Shown: piece after piece, positions 626-12,365 of the stretch
Layout: each line of letters begins with the position of its first letter
Numbering within the stretch: the stretch's first letter is position 1
Made by a program: the position numbers and the translations under genes
The notes under the pieces: model-generated
What the model saw: only the letters and a program-made list of their open reading frames with translations
What the model was told of the DNA's origin: nothing
Database searches by the model: none
Source of the DNA: Betaproteobacteria bacterium
GTDB taxonomy: Bacteria; Pseudomonadota; Gammaproteobacteria; Burkholderiales; SG8-41
Assembly (NCBI GenBank): GCA_900299145.1
Contig: OMIN01000081.1
Span: forward strand, 1-64,000
DNA: 64,000 nt
Reading direction: 5' to 3'

Positions 626-2362
626 CTACGCCTTCTTCCGCACCGCGGCCAACTTCGCATCCCATCCTCGCGGCAAATCAATCTTTTTGCCCGTCGGATA
701 GCCCAAAAACCCGTTGTGCGCGAACACATACATATTGTTGCGCAACGGGTCGCCGCTGACGGCAATCATGAAGTCTTCAGGCTTCCACACAATCGGCACC
801 CTGCGATTTTCGTCGTCGCTCTCGTAAAACACTTTGGGGATGCGGCCGTTGCGTACGTCATCTTTCAGATCCCACACGCCGCGAATGTTCCACACGCGCA
901 ACTGGCGCTCGAACTCCCACGCCGGCAGGCGCGCGTGATCAAAGAGATACTGTTTGACGTCGGCCTTGCTCCAACCCGCCTTGGCGATGGTCTCGGCGAG
1001 GATGGGGGTAATCACCACCAGCGGGCGCAGCATGCCCATGCCGTGGCTGGTGGTGAAGGTCAGTTGCCACATGTGATATTTCAACACCGAATCGGCGACG
1101 TAGGGCAGCAGCGTTTCCGGCGTGTCGCCCGACACTGACGAGAACGATCCGCCACCGGTGTATCGCGCAATCGTCACCGTGTTATCGCCCGCCTTGAACC
1201 CCATTTCCTCGGCGGTGTTGGGCCAACCGATGTCTTTCAGCACATCATCGTTTTCCGCCAGCACCACGCGCCAGGTGTTACCGAAGGTGGCCTTGTCGGT
1301 CTTGTGCGGCAAAAAGCCCGCGATGTTTCGGAGATACAGCCGCCAGAAGCGCCCGATGGAGGTATTGGCCTGAAAGCCGTCGCGTAGCGCGCCTTGCGTG
1401 TAGTTGAATCCGAGTTGCTTGATGATGGGGCCGTTGATGATGATGAGGTTTTCGCCGCCGGGCGTGTTGCCGCTGTGCTCAACGCCGTACTTCGGGTCGC
1501 ACATGCCTTCAATCGCCGCGACCAGCACCGGCATGTACTCAGGGCGGCAGCCCGCCATCACGCCGTTGACGGCCACGCTCCACACCGTTGCCGCGCGGCT
1601 GTCGGGCAGAATCACGCCCAGCACTTCGTTAGGGTCGCGGTCAGTGAATTTCAGAAACGCTTCGACCGCCTCGCGCGTCGGCGGCACGATGGGCAAGCCG
1701 TCGGACAACTCGTTATCGATGAAGTACTGATTGATTTCGGCGAACGTGCCCTTGCACACGATGTCGCGCGCGCCCGGCTCGCCGGATTTGCCTTTGACCG
1801 CGGGCTGCACGGTGAGGTTGTCGATCACCTGCTGCGCGGTGACTTCGATCACGTCGCGTTTCAGTTGTTCCGCGCTCTTGGTGCCGATGTGTCCGGGCAC
1901 CATCGCCAGCGGAATGCTGGGCATGCCCAGACCAATCGACGTCGCTCCGGCCTGCCGGATAAACCCCTCACAGGTCAGCGACGATGTCGGCAAGCCGAGT
2001 TCCTCGCACGCTGCACTGGCCCGCAACACGGCGGGCGTGCACGAACCTCAACAGGCCATGCCGCTGATCACGGCATCCACTTTCAGTTCTTTAAACTTGC
2101 GCGCGAACTCGGCGAGGTTTTCTTTTTCATCGCCGCCGTGCGAGCTGCCAAACTCGCGCCAGCTCACGAATTTGACCGCGGGAAACTGCGCCTTGATCGC
2201 TTCCTCCAGGTGTTCAAACACCTTGTCACCCTTGAAGAGGTAATCCCACACCTGCGCAATGGTGCGGCCATTCAAGGTTTCCAGTCGGCCCGCCAGCGGC
2301 TTGATGCCAGTTTGGCGCGGGCTGCGCGGCCAATACGCTTCAAAAGTTTGTTCGGGATTCAT
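626..2362 (-). CDS. UGSC-family selenoprotein (in-frame TGA read as selenocysteine)
   Basis: Two frames that look separate (2362-2048 and 2047-626) are in phase and divided only by TGA at 2048-2050. Read through, they give one 578-residue protein with the motif U-G-S-C at residues 105-108, preceded by DAVISGMAC and followed by TPAVLRASAACEELGLPT. This is the signature of the UGSC family, whose named position is selenocysteine or cysteine. A SECIS-like hairpin starts 7 nt after the TGA. The second region (residues about 215-578) carries DGLPIVPPTREAV and MAGCRPEYMPV, which I associate with the same family. The reaction is unknown; a redox role for Sec105/Cys108 is inference. ATG at 2362 follows an AT19 copy by 4 nt. 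It is the last gene of a leftward run with MmgE/PrpD, Bug and CoA-transferase genes. A conventional annotation would split it in two. Sec biosynthesis genes are not in the window. Confidence 0.85.
2013..2040 (-). promoter_or_regulatory. SECIS-like hairpin for the UGSC selenocysteine codon
   Basis: On the transcript the order after UGA is GGUUCGU, then GCAC-GCCCGC, loop CGUGUU, then GCGGGC-CA-GUGC. The inner 6-bp stem is perfect and the outer 4-bp stem closes it with a two-base bulge. G is the second base of the apical loop, about 19 nt after the UGA. Bacterial SECIS elements are described with a G among the first loop bases and a loop roughly 16-37 nt from the UGA, so position and shape fit. 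Folding was done by eye. Confidence 0.65.
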
Positions 2363-2398: not shown

Positions 2399-2872
2399 TC
2401 AATCATAGGCGCATTGAGCAGGCCGCGGTGCACCGGGGCCGCCTTTGGCAACCGAAGCACGGATGAGATCCAAACACCCTGGCGCCATGGACTTGGTGAG
2501 TAGTTCTTCGGCCGCGGGACAGGTTTGAGGCGTGCCCTTCACAACTTTGCCGCTGCGATACCGGCACGCCAGGCGCCCGGTACCGCCTGCATTGTCGGAC
2601 CAGACACGTACCGGATCGCCATTAACGATTTCAGTCAAAGCAATGACTTCCCACTTTGCCCGCCACGGCATGAACAACACCTGGCATCCGGTATAGCTTG
2701 CGTTGATGTCCTTGTTCCGGGGAAAAACGCGCAGCGTCTTGCCGTGTTGCGTCTCCTCCCCTGCGGCAGCCGGCGGCGCGGTCAAGTTGCAGTTGCGGCC
2801 AGCCGGGCGCGGTTCAGCGGCTTGCGGTGCGCCGGCCAGCAGGCCGAGAAGAAAAAGCGTGTAACGCATCAT
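2399..2872 (-). CDS. small secreted protein of unknown function
   Basis: About 157 residues. The N-terminus MMRYTLFLLGLLAGAPQAAE reads as a signal peptide ending near AAE, so the mature protein should be periplasmic. The rest has four or five scattered cysteines (CNLTAPP, YTGCQVLF, LACRYRSG, TCPAAEE, APGCLDL), which may form disulfides; I do not recognise the family. A longer start at ATG 2908 (MDFHL...) is possible and would begin 8 nt after the stop of the MmgE/PrpD gene. Neither start has a good ribosome-binding site. Tight spacing on both sides suggests co-transcription with the MmgE/PrpD and UGSC genes. Confidence 0.6.
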   Translation of the reverse strand: MMRYTLFLLGLLAGAPQAAEPRPAGRNCNLTAPPAAAGEETQHGKTLRVFPRNKDINASYTGCQVLFMPWRAKWEVIALTEIVNGDPVRVWSDNAGGTGRLACRYRSGKVVKGTPQTCPAAEELLTKSMAPGCLDLIRASVAKGGPGAPRPAQCAYD

Positions 2873-2916
2873 GATGATGAACCGTGAAGGGCTGAGGTGG
2901 AAATCCATGGCGTATC

Positions 2917-4356
2917 TCAAGCCAGCACCGCCATCAGGGGCTTGAGGTCCGGCAACTGCTCCAGCTTCATCACCAGATCAACCACCTGCATCGCGCGCGC
3001 TTTATCAAGCGGATGCAATGCCGCGCCCGCGCAATCCACAAACTTGCCGATCCGTGCATCGAGCGGCATGGGGTTGTCCGGGTGGCCAAGCGCGGTGTCG
3101 CAACTGGCGGTGTGGGTTTGCCCGCTGGTGGTGGTGATGGTAACGCGGCAAGGCTCCAGCGTGCGGCCGTTGTATTGCGCGTCGTATTGCCAGCGCACCT
3201 TGGGCATGGCGTGGGTGATCACGTCATCCGCCATCGCCGTCTGGTGGTAAATCGCCAGCGGAATCGTGCCATGCCGTATCAGCGCCGCGACCGCAAAGTG
3301 CATATTGCCGGCGAGGTCGATATGATTTTCCGGCACGCTGCCCAGTGCCACCGGTCGGCAGCGGTCGATGCTGACCTGGCCCAAATACAGCATCACTTCG
3401 CGGATGGTATCGAAGTTAAGTTGATGCTGCCGCATCAACTCATGCGCTGCCGTCAACGCCGTGTGCAGATGGCGAATGCACGGCCAGGGCTTTAACGAAA
3501 TGCGTTCAGTTTCGTAGTGTTTGCCCAGGCCTTGCAGCAGCGTATTGCGGTCGTAATCGCCGCGAAAGAACGCGTGATAAAACCCGTACGGCCCGTCAAA
3601 TACCTCTTTGTCGCCACGCAGGCCCGCCATCGAGAGTTCCGCTGCCACCACGCCGTTGCGGTACGTCAGCCCGTCGCGGATCGAGCGCACGCTGGAGCCT
3701 TTGTGATGCAGACTCGCCCATGTGCCGCTGACCTGCGGCAGGGTCAGTCCCAACGCATTCAGGTGCTGATCAGCACTGGCATTCAGGATTTTCGCCGCCG
3801 ACACCGTGGCGCCAAAGAGGCCGATCACTGGCGCGCGAAACCACGGGTGATCCCACATGCGCCCGCGCGTGGCGAGGCCCACACGGCTTGAAATATCATT
3901 GCCCAGCGCCACAGCCGTGATGATGGCCTGGCCCGCTTTTTTGTCCAACGCCCCGCCTTGGGCCTCACTCAAGGCGAGCGCGGGTGTGAGACTTGCTGAA
4001 GTGGGATGCATCACCGCGATATCGTGCGTGTCGTCGTAGTCAAATTGATGGATCGCCGCGCCGTTGCCCAACACCGCACTGGCGGCGGGAAGCCGCATGC
4101 CGCCGCTGCCTATCACCGTGCTGCTTGGCGCGCCGGCCCAGCCTGCCGCCACTTTACGCACACTCAACACATCGTCGCATGGTGTGCCGGCGAGTATGCA
4201 GCCCAGCGTGTCGAGGATCGACGCCTTGGCGGCTTGCACCACACTCGCGGGCAAATCCTCATAGCGGGTTTTCGCCAGATGCGTGGCGATGGCGAGCGCC
4301 GCGTCCGGCTCGCCGGCGCTATTGGATTGAACCTGATGCAGGTTGGCGCTCGTCAT
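2917..4356 (-). CDS. MmgE/PrpD family protein
   Basis: 479 residues from the ATG that opens MTSANLHQVQ; the frame extends further upstream, but family similarity begins with ATHLAKTRYEDLPASVV. The diagnostic core IHQFDYDDTHDIAVMHP (helix plus YDDTH) and the later HKGSSVRSIRDGLTYRNGV segment are typical of the fold shared by 2-methylcitrate dehydratase PrpD and cis-aconitate decarboxylase. Members act on small di- or tricarboxylates in the cytoplasm; the substrate here cannot be read. Its start is 23 nt from the stop of a Bug receptor gene, so receptor and enzyme are probably co-expressed. A second MmgE/PrpD gene lies at 28.9-30.4 kb, also next to a Bug gene. Confidence 0.85.
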   Translation of the reverse strand: MTSANLHQVQSNSAGEPDAALAIATHLAKTRYEDLPASVVQAAKASILDTLGCILAGTPCDDVLSVRKVAAGWAGAPSSTVIGSGGMRLPAASAVLGNGAAIHQFDYDDTHDIAVMHPTSASLTPALALSEAQGGALDKKAGQAIITAVALGNDISSRVGLATRGRMWDHPWFRAPVIGLFGATVSAAKILNASADQHLNALGLTLPQVSGTWASLHHKGSSVRSIRDGLTYRNGVVAAELSMAGLRGDKEVFDGPYGFYHAFFRGDYDRNTLLQGLGKHYETERISLKPWPCIRHLHTALTAAHELMRQHQLNFDTIREVMLYLGQVSIDRCRPVALGSVPENHIDLAGNMHFAVAALIRHGTIPLAIYHQTAMADDVITHAMPKVRWQYDAQYNGRTLEPCRVTITTTSGQTHTASCDTALGHPDNPMPLDARIGKFVDCAGAALHPLDKARAMQVVDLVMKLEQLPDLKPLMAVLA

Positions 4357-4378
4357 GATGTTGCCCGAATCCGCTTTC

Positions 4379-5356
4379 TCAATCGGCGCGCGCGCCGGAG
4401 AGTTTGACCACCTTCGCCCACTTGCCGACCGCGGCGCGCATGAAGGCCGCGAACTCTTCCGGCGTTGAAGCCATGGGATACGCACCGATGTCCGCCAGCG
4501 CTGGCGTGATCTCCTTCACCGCCTGCGTGATCTGTAAGTTCAGCCGTGTGATGATGTCGCGCGGCGTGCCGGTGGGTGCCAGCACGCCGTTCCACACGCT
4601 CGCCTCGTAATTGGGCACGCCGGCTTCGATCATCGTCGGCAGCGCGGGGAATTCGGCGACACGCTGGCGGGTGGCCGTGGCCAGCGCGCGCAGCCGCCCG
4701 GCCTTCGCATGTGACTTCACCTGCTCGGCATTGAAGATGAACAACACTTGCACGTGGCCGCCGAGGAAATCCGTGGTCGCCGGCCCCGCGCCTTTGTACG
4801 GCACGTGCACGAGGTTGATGCCGGCAATGGATTTGAACAACTCCGTCGCCAGATGCGAAGCGCTGCCGCTGCCTGACGAAGCGTAGCTCAACTCGCCCGG
4901 GCGCGCTTTCGCGAGGGCCACAAGCTCCTTCACGGTTTTCACCGGCAGCGACGCGTGCACGGCGAGAAAGCTCGGGATATCCGCCACCGGCGCAACTGCC
5001 ACGAAATCTTTCTGCAGATCGAACGGTAGCGTGTTAAAGAGACTCACGTTCACTGTCAGCGTGCTGGTGGCGTAGAGCAGTGTCAAGCCATCGGCAGGCG
5101 CCCGCGCCACGGTTTGCGCGGCGATGTTCGACGATGCGCCCGCGCGATTTTCCACCACAAACGATTGCCCCAGGTTATCCGTCAACTTGCGCGTGAGCAG
5201 CCGCGCGACGACATCGGTGCTGCCGCCGGGCGCGAAGCCCACCACCATGCGCACGGGTTTGGCAGGGTAGGTTTGCGCGTGGGCGCATGCCGCCGTAGCC
5301 GCACTGATGAATACAGCTCGCAGAAAGCGGTTTCGTATGTATTTGTTTTGATTCAC
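4379..5356 (-). CDS. Bug/TctC-type periplasmic solute receptor
   Basis: 325 residues from a GTG start. The family (tripartite tricarboxylate transporter receptors) consists of periplasmic Venus-flytrap proteins that bind small carboxylates or aromatics and normally hand them to TctAB. Visible hallmarks are YPAKPVRMVVGFAPGGSTD right after the signal peptide, ENRAGASSN, and VHVPYKGAGPATTDFLGG. The GTG start was chosen because the next residues NQNKYIRNRF give a charged n-region before a hydrophobic core ending AHA-QTYPA; an upstream TTG at 5380 is less convincing. Those first codons are an AT19 repeat. The gene sits between CoA-transferase and MmgE/PrpD genes in the same direction. Confidence 0.9.
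   Translation of the reverse strand: MNQNKYIRNRFLRAVFISAATAACAHAQTYPAKPVRMVVGFAPGGSTDVVARLLTRKLTDNLGQSFVVENRAGASSNIAAQTVARAPADGLTLLYATSTLTVNVSLFNTLPFDLQKDFVAVAPVADIPSFLAVHASLPVKTVKELVALAKARPGELSYASSGSGSASHLATELFKSIAGINLVHVPYKGAGPATTDFLGGHVQVLFIFNAEQVKSHAKAGRLRALATATRQRVAEFPALPTMIEAGVPNYEASVWNGVLAPTGTPRDIITRLNLQITQAVKEITPALADIGAYPMASTPEEFAAFMRAAVGKWAKVVKLSGARAD
5336..5353 (-). repeat. AT19 repeat copy inside the 5' end of a Bug gene
   Basis: The minus strand reads AATCAAAACAAATACATA, a variant with CATA instead of CTTA. It is read as codons for NQNKYI directly after the GTG start of the Bug gene and is followed by the hydrophobic signal-peptide core. Confidence 0.6.
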
Positions 5357-5380
5357 TATTTTTATAGCGCCTACGCGCAA

Positions 5381-6637
5381 TCAGCCCTGAGCCGCCGCCG
5401 CCAACGGCTCGCGAAAATCCGGATGCGCAATCGCCGTCAGCCGCTTTGCACGTTCACGCATCGACGCACCGCGTAAATCAGCAACGCCATATTCGGTGAC
5501 GATCAAGTCCACGTCGGCACGCGCCGTGGTTACGGGGGCGCCTTTTAGCGATGCCACAATGCGCGAATATTTGCCATCGGGTGTTGCCGACGCCATGGCG
5601 ATAATGGATCGCCCACCGGGCGACAATTGCGCACCGCGCACGTAATCAGCCTGCCCGCCGATGGCGCCGAGATAACGCCCCGCCGCGATTTCGGAATTGA
5701 GTTGCCCGGTGAGATCGACTTCAATCGCTGAATTCACGCTGTAAAAATTGTTCAGTTGCGCCATCACCAGCGGGCTGTGCGTGTGATCCGACGAACGCAT
5801 ATCGAGCAGCGCGTTGCCGTTGGCCCAATCCATCAGCCGCCGCCCGCCGAACAAGCCGCCAGTCACCGTGCGTCCCGCGTCCAGCCCCTTGTGCGCGTTG
5901 GTGATCACGCCCTTCTCGATGAGATCGACAATGCCGTCGCAAATCACGCCGCTGTGTACGCCCAACTCGCGGTGCGACATCAGCGCCTGACACACCGCCA
6001 CCGGCAGACTGCCGATGCCGATTTGAATGGTGGCGCGGTCGGGAATCACGCTCGCCACCTGTTGCGCCACCTGAATATCGATGGGCGCCGGCTCGCCATC
6101 CGGCATCAGCCACTCGTCGCAATCGGCAGTGGTCAGGTGATGCACGGCGTCGCACGGGATCAGCGCGTCCTGCGAGGTCACCGGCATGCGTTCATCGAGT
6201 TCACCGATAACACAGCGCGCCGCGCCCACCATCGCCCGCGCAAAATCCGCCATCACGCCCACCGAATAAAAGCCCGGCTTCGGATGCGGACGCACGCGCA
6301 CCAGCATCACGTCCACCTTGAGCGCGCGCGCGCGTATCAGGCCCGGCACTTTCGACACATGCGCGGGCACGATGTCGAGCACACCCGCCGCCGCGAGACG
6401 CCGGTTGTTGCCCGCGCCGTTCAGCGCCTTGAAATCAAAATGATCGGCGTGCGCGGGCAACAGCGTGTCGCTCGCGCTGATACCGACAAAAATCGTCACG
6501 CGCGGCAATTCGGCGCGCTGCGTCACCAGCTGCCGCGTCAATCCTGCCGGCTCACCGGTGCCTTGCAGCCAGGTGACGACATCACCGGCGCGCAGGACCT
6601 TGGAGAAATCGAATTGGGCGCAGGGGCGGGGATTCAT
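5381..6637 (-). CDS. acetyl-CoA hydrolase/transferase family (4-hydroxybutyrate CoA-transferase-like)
   Basis: 418 residues, close to the usual 420-440 of the family. Conserved elements include the CoA-binding GIGSLPVAV loop, HSGVICDGIVDLIEKGV, and SAIEVDLTGQ, where the glutamate is the expected thioester-forming residue. IVTEYGVADLRG near the end matches the C-terminal domain. It would transfer CoA between acyl-CoA and a free carboxylate in the cytoplasm, a sensible activation step for an acid captured by the neighbouring Bug receptors. It is the second gene of the leftward run, 65 nt after one Bug gene and 24 nt before another. An AT19 copy lies 18 nt before its ATG. Confidence 0.88.
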   Translation of the reverse strand: MNPRPCAQFDFSKVLRAGDVVTWLQGTGEPAGLTRQLVTQRAELPRVTIFVGISASDTLLPAHADHFDFKALNGAGNNRRLAAAGVLDIVPAHVSKVPGLIRARALKVDVMLVRVRPHPKPGFYSVGVMADFARAMVGAARCVIGELDERMPVTSQDALIPCDAVHHLTTADCDEWLMPDGEPAPIDIQVAQQVASVIPDRATIQIGIGSLPVAVCQALMSHRELGVHSGVICDGIVDLIEKGVITNAHKGLDAGRTVTGGLFGGRRLMDWANGNALLDMRSSDHTHSPLVMAQLNNFYSVNSAIEVDLTGQLNSEIAAGRYLGAIGGQADYVRGAQLSPGGRSIIAMASATPDGKYSRIVASLKGAPVTTARADVDLIVTEYGVADLRGASMRERAKRLTAIAHPDFREPLAAAAQG

Positions 6638-12288: not shown

Positions 12289-12365
12289 TGGTCGGGGTGA
12301 GAGGGTTCGAACCTCCGACTCCTGCGTCCCGAACGCAGTACTCTACCAGGCTGAGCTACACCCCG
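12289..12365 (-). tRNA. tRNA-Pro (anticodon CGG)
   Basis: 77 nt on the minus strand. Acceptor stem CGGGGTG pairs with CACCCCG; discriminator A is followed by an encoded CCA. The anticodon arm CTGCG-TTCGGGA-CGCAG has CGG at positions 34-36. The T arm contains GGTTCGAACC. It reads Pro codon CCG, common in this GC-rich sequence. Confidence 0.95.

Follow-up and report, generated by a model that had tools for sequence, protein, structure and literature searches.

A UGSC-family selenoprotein gene fused to a second conserved domain, and its remote relation to the selenocysteine domain of GrdB and PrdB

On the minus strand of the window (the whole stretch of 64,000 nucleotides analysed here), two open reading frames lie in phase and are joined by a TGA. 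Are these two genes, or one gene in which the TGA is read as selenocysteine (Sec), and what might the product of a joined gene do? A reading made before any database search, the sequence-only reading, proposed one selenoprotein of the UGSC family that standard gene calling would split. The proposal is followed here through the coding of the TGA, the two domains of the protein, their genomic neighbours and the possible function.

One frame with a selenocysteine codon

When positions 626-2362 are translated with TGA as a residue, one 578-residue frame is obtained with a single recoded codon, U105, in the motif MACUGSCTPAV. Under the standard code the same stretch yields two ORFs of 104 aa (2048-2362) and 467 aa (626-2029), and the gene is split as had been proposed. 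The Pfam UGSC model (PF24696) runs through the TGA with 96.5 bits against a cut-off of 25, which bears out the family assignment, and either half of the ORF alone scores about 31 bits. The narrower UGSC model of NCBI, NF041046, gives 47.1 bits, below its cut-off of 125, so the protein is a fused, divergent member. In a scan of named genomes the nearest named relative belongs to a Betaproteobacteria MAG, and locus L062 is 90% identical to the window protein over residues 1-574. A PDB sequence search with the window protein gave no match at E 1, a search of phage records gave none, and a PHROGs search returned nothing relevant. By its frame and profile match, the window gene adds one more member to a selenoprotein family already known. 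The features are collected in Table 1.

Table 1. Features on the minus strand of the window, with positions counted from its first letter.
Feature	Positions	Strand	Remarks
Predicted UGSC/C-domain fusion selenoprotein gene	626..2362	minus	578 residues, from ATG (2362) to TAG (628-626)
TGA codon 105, predicted to be read as selenocysteine	2048..2050	minus	based on frame, paralogues and relatives
UGSC domain (PF24696), residues 11-184	1811..2332	minus	profile match; remote homologue of the GrdB/PrdB Sec domain by profile comparison
C-terminal domain (C-domain), residues 195-578 and stop	626..1780	minus	without Pfam family or clear solved fold
SECIS-like hairpin core	2012..2041	minus	begins at the 7th nt past the TGA
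Hairpin lower stem	2037-2041 with 2012-2016	minus	5 bp
Hairpin upper stem	2031-2036 with 2019-2024	minus	6 bp
Hairpin loop CGUGUU	2025-2030	minus	G at loop position 2; CA bulge in core
Upstream ORF, putative gene	2399..2908	minus	no Pfam/NCBIfam family at E 1e-5
MmgE/PrpD family gene, upstream neighbour	2917..4485	minus	library match
TctC/Bug solute-binding protein gene, upstream neighbour	4379..5380	minus	library match
Acetyl-CoA hydrolase/transferase family gene, upstream neighbour	5381..6637	minus	library match
tRNA-Pro (cgg)	12289-12365	minus	sole tRNA found in the window (ARAGORN)

The source genome (G000; 5.5 Mb, 99.69% complete, 1.36% contamination) contains the selenocysteine machinery that the sequence-only reading had expected. 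The genes selA (568.6 bits), selB (442.7 bits) and selD (422.6 bits) all exceed their curated cut-offs, as does a tRNA-Sec (74.5 bits) with anticodon tca (UCA in the RNA; ARAGORN). Among 14 control genomes, only 1 to 5 rise above the cut-offs in the same searches. On contig C110 the order is selA, selB, a flavoprotein gene and tRNA-Sec, with a UGSC paralogue adjoining. The selD gene (C129:8959-9888, locus L153) itself has an in-frame TGA, and therefore the selenium-donor enzyme is probably also a selenoprotein; a PrdB-like gene (C134:28779-29363, locus L148) carries an in-frame TGA in U-P-N-C, scores 97.5 bits to the PrdB model (cut-off 300) and is another probable selenoprotein.

A PF24696 search finds UGSC loci with one in-frame TGA in 19 of 19 cases in this genome, surrounded by UGSC, UGAC, UGTC, UGGC and, once, UGSS. 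The UGSS copy C110:32769 (C110:32694-33305) is without the second Cys, and its hairpin is less typical (z -0.68). The scan of named genomes confirmed at least 565 related stretches; in the best 79 of them the codon at the site is TGA in 76, spread over several phyla, TGC in 2 (Novosphingobium flavum and Nocardioides sediminis) and unreadable in frame in 1. The last, a Dehalococcoidia relative (L127:45-1578), has many stops in the assumed frame and is perhaps a frameshifted or degraded copy. A plasmid search matched 24 records, and in the 6 regions examined the site codon is TGC in Natrinema and Haloterrigena, TGT in Halalkalicoccus and Variovorax and TGA in Acidovorax sp. T1; around the site, Neorhizobium shows HCSTC, a divergent motif. 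The Variovorax Cys form is one unbroken 545-residue frame. At the position of residue 105, where the sequence-only reading had proposed to look for Sec or Cys, the relatives have either TGA or codons for Cys, and this exchange is the pattern expected of a selenoprotein.

A TGA at the same site in 19/19 own loci and 76/79 relatives is far above chance. A frameshift, a sequencing error or a recent mutation of TGT or TGC is rejected on the TGA of the own loci and the codons of the relatives; a genome without Sec machinery and with such a mutation, the outcome that would have told against the proposal, is contradicted by the sel genes and the relatives' TGA. Genome-wide reassignment of TGA was also considered and set aside, because selA and selB are free of stops and a second TGA ends 10 of the 19 UGSC frames. 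Because the sel set is present, every own locus has the TGA and relatives have TGA or Cys codons there, the TGA is read as a Sec codon: its insertion in the window gene is close to certain as a prediction made from DNA, and the 578-residue selenoprotein proposed earlier stands.

The two-stem hairpin described for the region 7 nt downstream of the TGA, with G second in its loop, is found with the geometry given in Table 1, and the minimum-energy fold adds two outer pairs to the core. Taken alone, its stability is modest, with z -1.50 against dinucleotide shuffles (14 of 200 fold as well) and z -1.31 against synonymous recoding. Across the copies, 18 of 19 own hairpins are more stable than the mean of their synonymous nulls (mean z -1.61; 14 below -1), as are 68 of 78 in relatives (mean z -1.17; 48 below -1), the two Cys copies among these 78 having z -0.43 and +0.19. 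In an alignment of 72 sequences, 69 of them distinct, unpaired positions are rare in the upper stem; the pair that closes it is GC in 53 sequences, AU in 9 and GU in 2, and is missing in 5. Pairing in the lower stem is poorer, and 43 of 69 sequences do not form pair 13-36. Pairing fills 84.8% of the cells, against 22.9-54.8% with slid partners, and is matched by 5 of 500 shuffles; the covariation score is matched by 7 of 500. Double-change pairs (383/500 shuffles) and further pair types (344/500) do not stand above the shuffles in this alignment. Part of the conservation in this region belongs to the protein level, because the sequences share a protein motif. Among the TGA relatives, G occurs in the columns of loop positions 1-2 in 76/76, and in 6/76 the upper stem is reduced to 3 or 4 of its 6 pairs in the register of the window hairpin. 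The hairpin evidence for selection at the RNA level is convincing for the set of copies and modest for the hairpin of the window gene alone. A very divergent fused Sec copy of the same genome (C44:49003-50769) folds worse than its synonymous null (z +1.64), and its SECIS is doubtful or different.

The opposite reading, in which the TGA is a genuine stop, an error of sequencing or a mutation of recent date and the halves are separate proteins or dead, is hardly credible: standard calling does yield two ORFs and the window hairpin alone is only moderately stable, but a TGA in 76/79 relatives across several phyla, a complete sel machinery, the Cys in the unbroken Variovorax frame and hairpins more stable than synonymous nulls all speak against it.

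The UGSC domain and the C-domain

A profile of the 19 own UGSC domains aligns in hhalign with the GrdB family at E 5.6e-9 over 77 columns, the GrdB profile consisting of 3 sequences from Geosporobacter, and with PrdB at E 2.6e-6 over 80 columns, the PrdB profile consisting of 2 sequences, one from Geosporobacter and one the source genome's own PrdB-like gene. The ten split-form domains alone reach E 2.5e-9 against GrdB. As controls, 13 other neighbour families give E 0.0051-0.7 with the UGSC profile, and reversed GrdB and PrdB profiles give 0.024 and 0.12. Single UGSC members compared with the GrdB, GrdF, GrdH and PrdB models reach 1.8e-7 at best, each model being matched at E 0.01 by between 1 and 5 of the 19 members, and the copy on contig C84 is matched by the PrdB model at E 3.7e-5. 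The alignment of UGSC, GrdB and PrdB takes in the UGxCT motif with the strand before it, the helix and strand that come after, and an IPHP-type segment. The window protein scores 18.6 bits against PrdB and 12.1 bits against GrdF, below the cut-offs of TIGR04483 (300) and NF040794 (800). Judged by these profile comparisons, the UGSC domain shares remote homology with the GrdB/PrdB selenocysteine domain and lies outside those families. This link was not found in the portions of the literature searched, and may exist outside them.

The likeness to GrdB, the selenoprotein B of glycine, betaine and sarcosine reductases, consists of UGxCT following a β-strand and of the downstream IPHP-type segment, whereas the GrdB model spans 431 positions and a large N-terminal part of it lies outside the alignment with UGSC. 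The D-proline reductase selenoprotein PrdB is alike in the 80 aligned columns; a difference is that none of the four annotated upstream neighbours of the window gene is PrdA-like.

In the whole-protein model (mean pLDDT 80.2, built from 9 sequences), strand 97-103 precedes residue 105 and helix 108-121 follows it. No PDB entry matches the full-length model in Foldseek at E 0.001 or better. Structure comparison of residues ~31-190 returns Rossmann-like folds, the 50 matches listed having Z 8.8-11.6, rmsd 2.9-4.0 and 118-149 aligned residues; PurE accounts for 27 of these 50, and thioredoxin is absent among them. The predicted model suggests that the UGSC domain is a parallel α/β, Rossmann-like domain and does not support the thioredoxin-like (Trx-like) fold given as likely in 2008 (PMC2398784). 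In PDB sequence searches, the UGSC profile finds an unrelated best match at E 0.12 and the GrdB profile finds none at 0.1.

The C-domain is conserved in a MAGC-x-PE segment and at many other residues. None of the 39 C-domain members scanned matches Pfam at E 0.01, and a PDB sequence search with the C-domain profile gives an unrelated best match at E 0.089. The C-domain model, built from 39 sequences, is confident (pLDDT 89.8, pTM 0.89); with it, Foldseek finds nothing at E 0.001 or better, and the best structure comparison has Z 5.2. A relation to class I fumarase subunits was considered and is too weak (Foldseek E 1.2e-3, Z 4.7 or less). The C-domain is without a clear solved fold in the lists searched, and a new fold is not thereby proven. 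Compared with 16 reading frames of grd/prd neighbourhoods, it shows no homology (best hhalign E 0.012); kinship with GrdE or PrdA is unsupported, and because of this result so is a role as a pyruvoyl-type activating subunit.

An adjacent C-domain gene on the same strand accompanies 8 of the 10 split UGSC genes of the genome. In three haloarchaeal plasmids a UGSC gene is followed by an adjacent C-domain-type gene, and the Haloterrigena partner matches the C-domain profile at E 2e-52. Trees of the UGSC domains (18 of the 19 own copies) and of the C-domains (10 separate genes and 9 fused) agree in grouping two fused copies, C79 and C110:21521, with split forms and away from fusions of the type seen in the window gene. 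Such repeated fusion or fission of the same parts argues that UGSC and C-domain would act as one unit.

Other arrangements occur as well. Contig C114 has two C-domain genes beside one UGSC gene, and contigs C145 and C78 carry C-domain genes but no UGSC match; the C-domain may also function together with a partner from another locus. The Cys-form UGSC and C-domain genes of the haloarchaeal plasmid loci L156, L158 and L161 have hydrolase, lyase, dehydrogenase and transporter genes near them.

Genomic neighbours and copy number

The product of the flavoprotein gene between selB and tRNA-Sec is a pyridine nucleotide-disulphide oxidoreductase of 303 residues that contains a CxxC motif. It scores 231.4 bits against the thioredoxin reductase model, below the cut-off of 343.45, and is for this reason classed as thioredoxin reductase-like (TrxR-like) rather than as a standard TrxB. 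Its cluster occurs 20 times in the loci of the best 79 relatives, and 8 of these occurrences lie within 300 bp of UGSC on the same strand, against 4.7% expected from the bases available (binomial p 1.9e-6, with related loci not independent); the other 71 of the 79 loci, some of them short, are without such a flavoprotein within 300 bp. Both Cys relatives have the flavoprotein, in L135 at 161 bp on the same strand and in L093 at 995 bp on the opposite strand. Another 5 loci carry it on the downstream side of a second C-domain-like gene, which it follows directly in L082, L085, L088 and L109; in L083 one gene intervenes. In Haloterrigena, with the Cys form, the gene immediately after those for UGSC and C-domain encodes a CxxC flavoprotein of 32% identity, and in Variovorax a CxxC flavoprotein lies two genes upstream of the fused Cys form; the other 4 of the 6 plasmid regions examined have no recognisable one. 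From this recurrence, the CxxC flavoprotein is the likely electron donor of UGSC proteins.

The neighbours of the window gene itself (MmgE/PrpD, TctC and CoA-transferase type) fit organic-acid metabolism. Neighbour clusters were built with a simple gene caller, and most labels (Bug, SDR, CaiB) were read from sequence, some being library-checked. TctC genes number 22 in 107 kb within 3 kb of the 19 own UGSC loci versus 29 in 163 kb beyond (2.05 vs 1.78 per 10 kb), and in relatives the densities are 0.87 vs 0.77 per 10 kb. The TctC linkage is rejected as a clue to the substrate: since TctC genes are not enriched near UGSC and are very common in the genome, transporter neighbours say little about it. 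With at least 150 TctC/Bug solute-binding genes (707 first-look candidates), the genome has undergone a very large expansion of this group.

The 19 UGSC loci of the source genome comprise 10 split and 9 fused forms. Within the same family, all 35 other genomes searched have UGSC matches, with 2 to 58 stretches per genome (median 18), counted as matching stretches, as lower bounds for genomes G013 and G018 and in full for G014; outside the family, matches occur in 3 of 24 genomes of the order. Among the matches listed, each UGSC stretch carries one TGA. Genome G014 (98% complete, 2% contamination) has 58 stretches in its full list; 54 contain a TGA, and 51 of these reach a length of 400 bases or more. 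One nearly full-length match in it (G014:C76:16708-17226) is without a stop and is possibly a Cys or other variant. The largest selenoproteomes given in the sources consulted in part contain 63 selenoproteins in a Methylomirabilota MAG (Deng et al. 2026, cited in PMC13188914), 57 in an Olavius symbiont (PMC13188914), 46 in Desulfosediminicola (PMC12013277) and 39 in Syntrophobacter (PMC5029168, PMC9312934). Because these published maxima of 39-63 refer to whole selenoproteomes, one family alone, with the roughly 50 UGSC copies of G014, comes near the record, with strain mixing in the MAG being possible.

A quick tree was made of 83 fused proteins from a set centred on the window protein; it places 4 of the 9 own fused copies, including the window gene, nearest to a copy of another organism; the other 5 group together on long branches.

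Possible function and relation to known systems

The window protein resembles the UGSC family (PF24696/NF041046) in its domain, the U-G-S-C motif, the in-frame TGA and the SECIS-like hairpin, and differs in scoring below the NF041046 cut-off and in its extra 384-residue C-terminal domain. In the Global Ocean Sampling data, a 2008 paper described a UGSC protein fused to a conserved uncharacterised domain, 'Unknown_1', and its function is unexplained in the portion consulted (PMC2398784). The C-domain is taken to be Unknown_1, equated by architecture and description rather than through the published alignment, and the GrdB/PrdB relation of UGSC is not given in that portion. The architecture has been known since 2008; added here are the relation to GrdB and PrdB, the flavoprotein neighbour, the pairing of two parts as a unit and the number of copies.

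A redox role of the window protein is very probable. Enzymes of the GrdB/PrdB type use Sec itself for the attack. A 2026 review consulted in part describes how glycine is bound by GrdB with release of ammonia, and how the ring of D-proline is cleaved reductively by its reductase (PMC13188914). With somewhat more confidence than doubt, we read the UGSC proteins as NAD(P)H-driven, substrate-specific two-domain reductases that would use a Sec/Cys pair in the manner of GrdB and PrdB. A search of the genome for GrdA gave no match, and the controls of that search gave none either.

From the Sec coding, remote domain homology, domain pairing and recurrent flavoprotein neighbour seen in the sequences, we infer an electron path, a reductive chemistry, a role of the C-domain and a diversity of substrates. 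SelB, tRNA-Sec and the in-frame hairpin would insert Sec105 by UGA read-through. On the Rossmann-like UGSC domain, where a helix begins, Sec105 and Cys108 would act as a redox pair, and the C-domain, often encoded by a separate adjacent gene, would hold and activate the substrate. Attack on or reduction of the substrate by Sec would leave a Sec-Cys selenenylsulfide, which the TrxR-like CxxC flavoprotein would reset with NAD(P)H. The paralogues would differ in substrate.

The UxxC motif, the TrxR-like neighbour and the Trx-like fold proposed in 2008 (PMC2398784) would also suit a selenoprotein that is a thioredoxin-like, general thiol-disulfide oxidoreductase or peroxidase in protein repair or detoxification. 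This is unlikely, because residues 31-190 of the model are Rossmann-like with no thioredoxin among the 50 matches listed, the domain is homologous to GrdB/PrdB, and 19 divergent loci with a conserved second domain better fit substrate-specific enzymes. Quite improbable is a selenoprotein whose Sec/Cys pair binds metal or has a non-redox or regulatory role: the recurrent CxxC flavoprotein neighbour and the exchange of Sec and Cys with their spacing kept argue against it, even though a metal-binding role has been proposed for Sec in other families, according to the parts of the review consulted (PMC13188914), and the GrdB relation is remote.

The substrate-specific reductase reading can be extended, as a tentative possibility that we hold with more doubt than confidence, to an unrecognised superfamily of GrdB/PrdB-like selenium-dependent reductases. 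UGSC and C-domain together would constitute it, with a catalytic C-domain of unsolved fold, a dedicated flavoprotein donor and, within a single bacterial family, a radiation to dozens of copies per genome that are substrate-specific. Judging by the nearest named relative, the Betaproteobacteria MAG, this family is probably betaproteobacterial.

As far as the 2026 review was consulted, UGSC proteins are still among the largely uncharacterised selenoproteins, and the groups named as rich in selenoproteins are mainly anaerobic (PMC13188914). A family with 2-58 UGSC stretches per genome would extend those groups. Standard annotation cuts such UGSC genes in two. In conclusion, the GrdB/PrdB link, the two-domain or two-gene unit and the candidate electron donor make the function of UGSC testable, and the radiation of such a superfamily, if true, would make organic-acid metabolism in that bacterial family heavily selenium-dependent.
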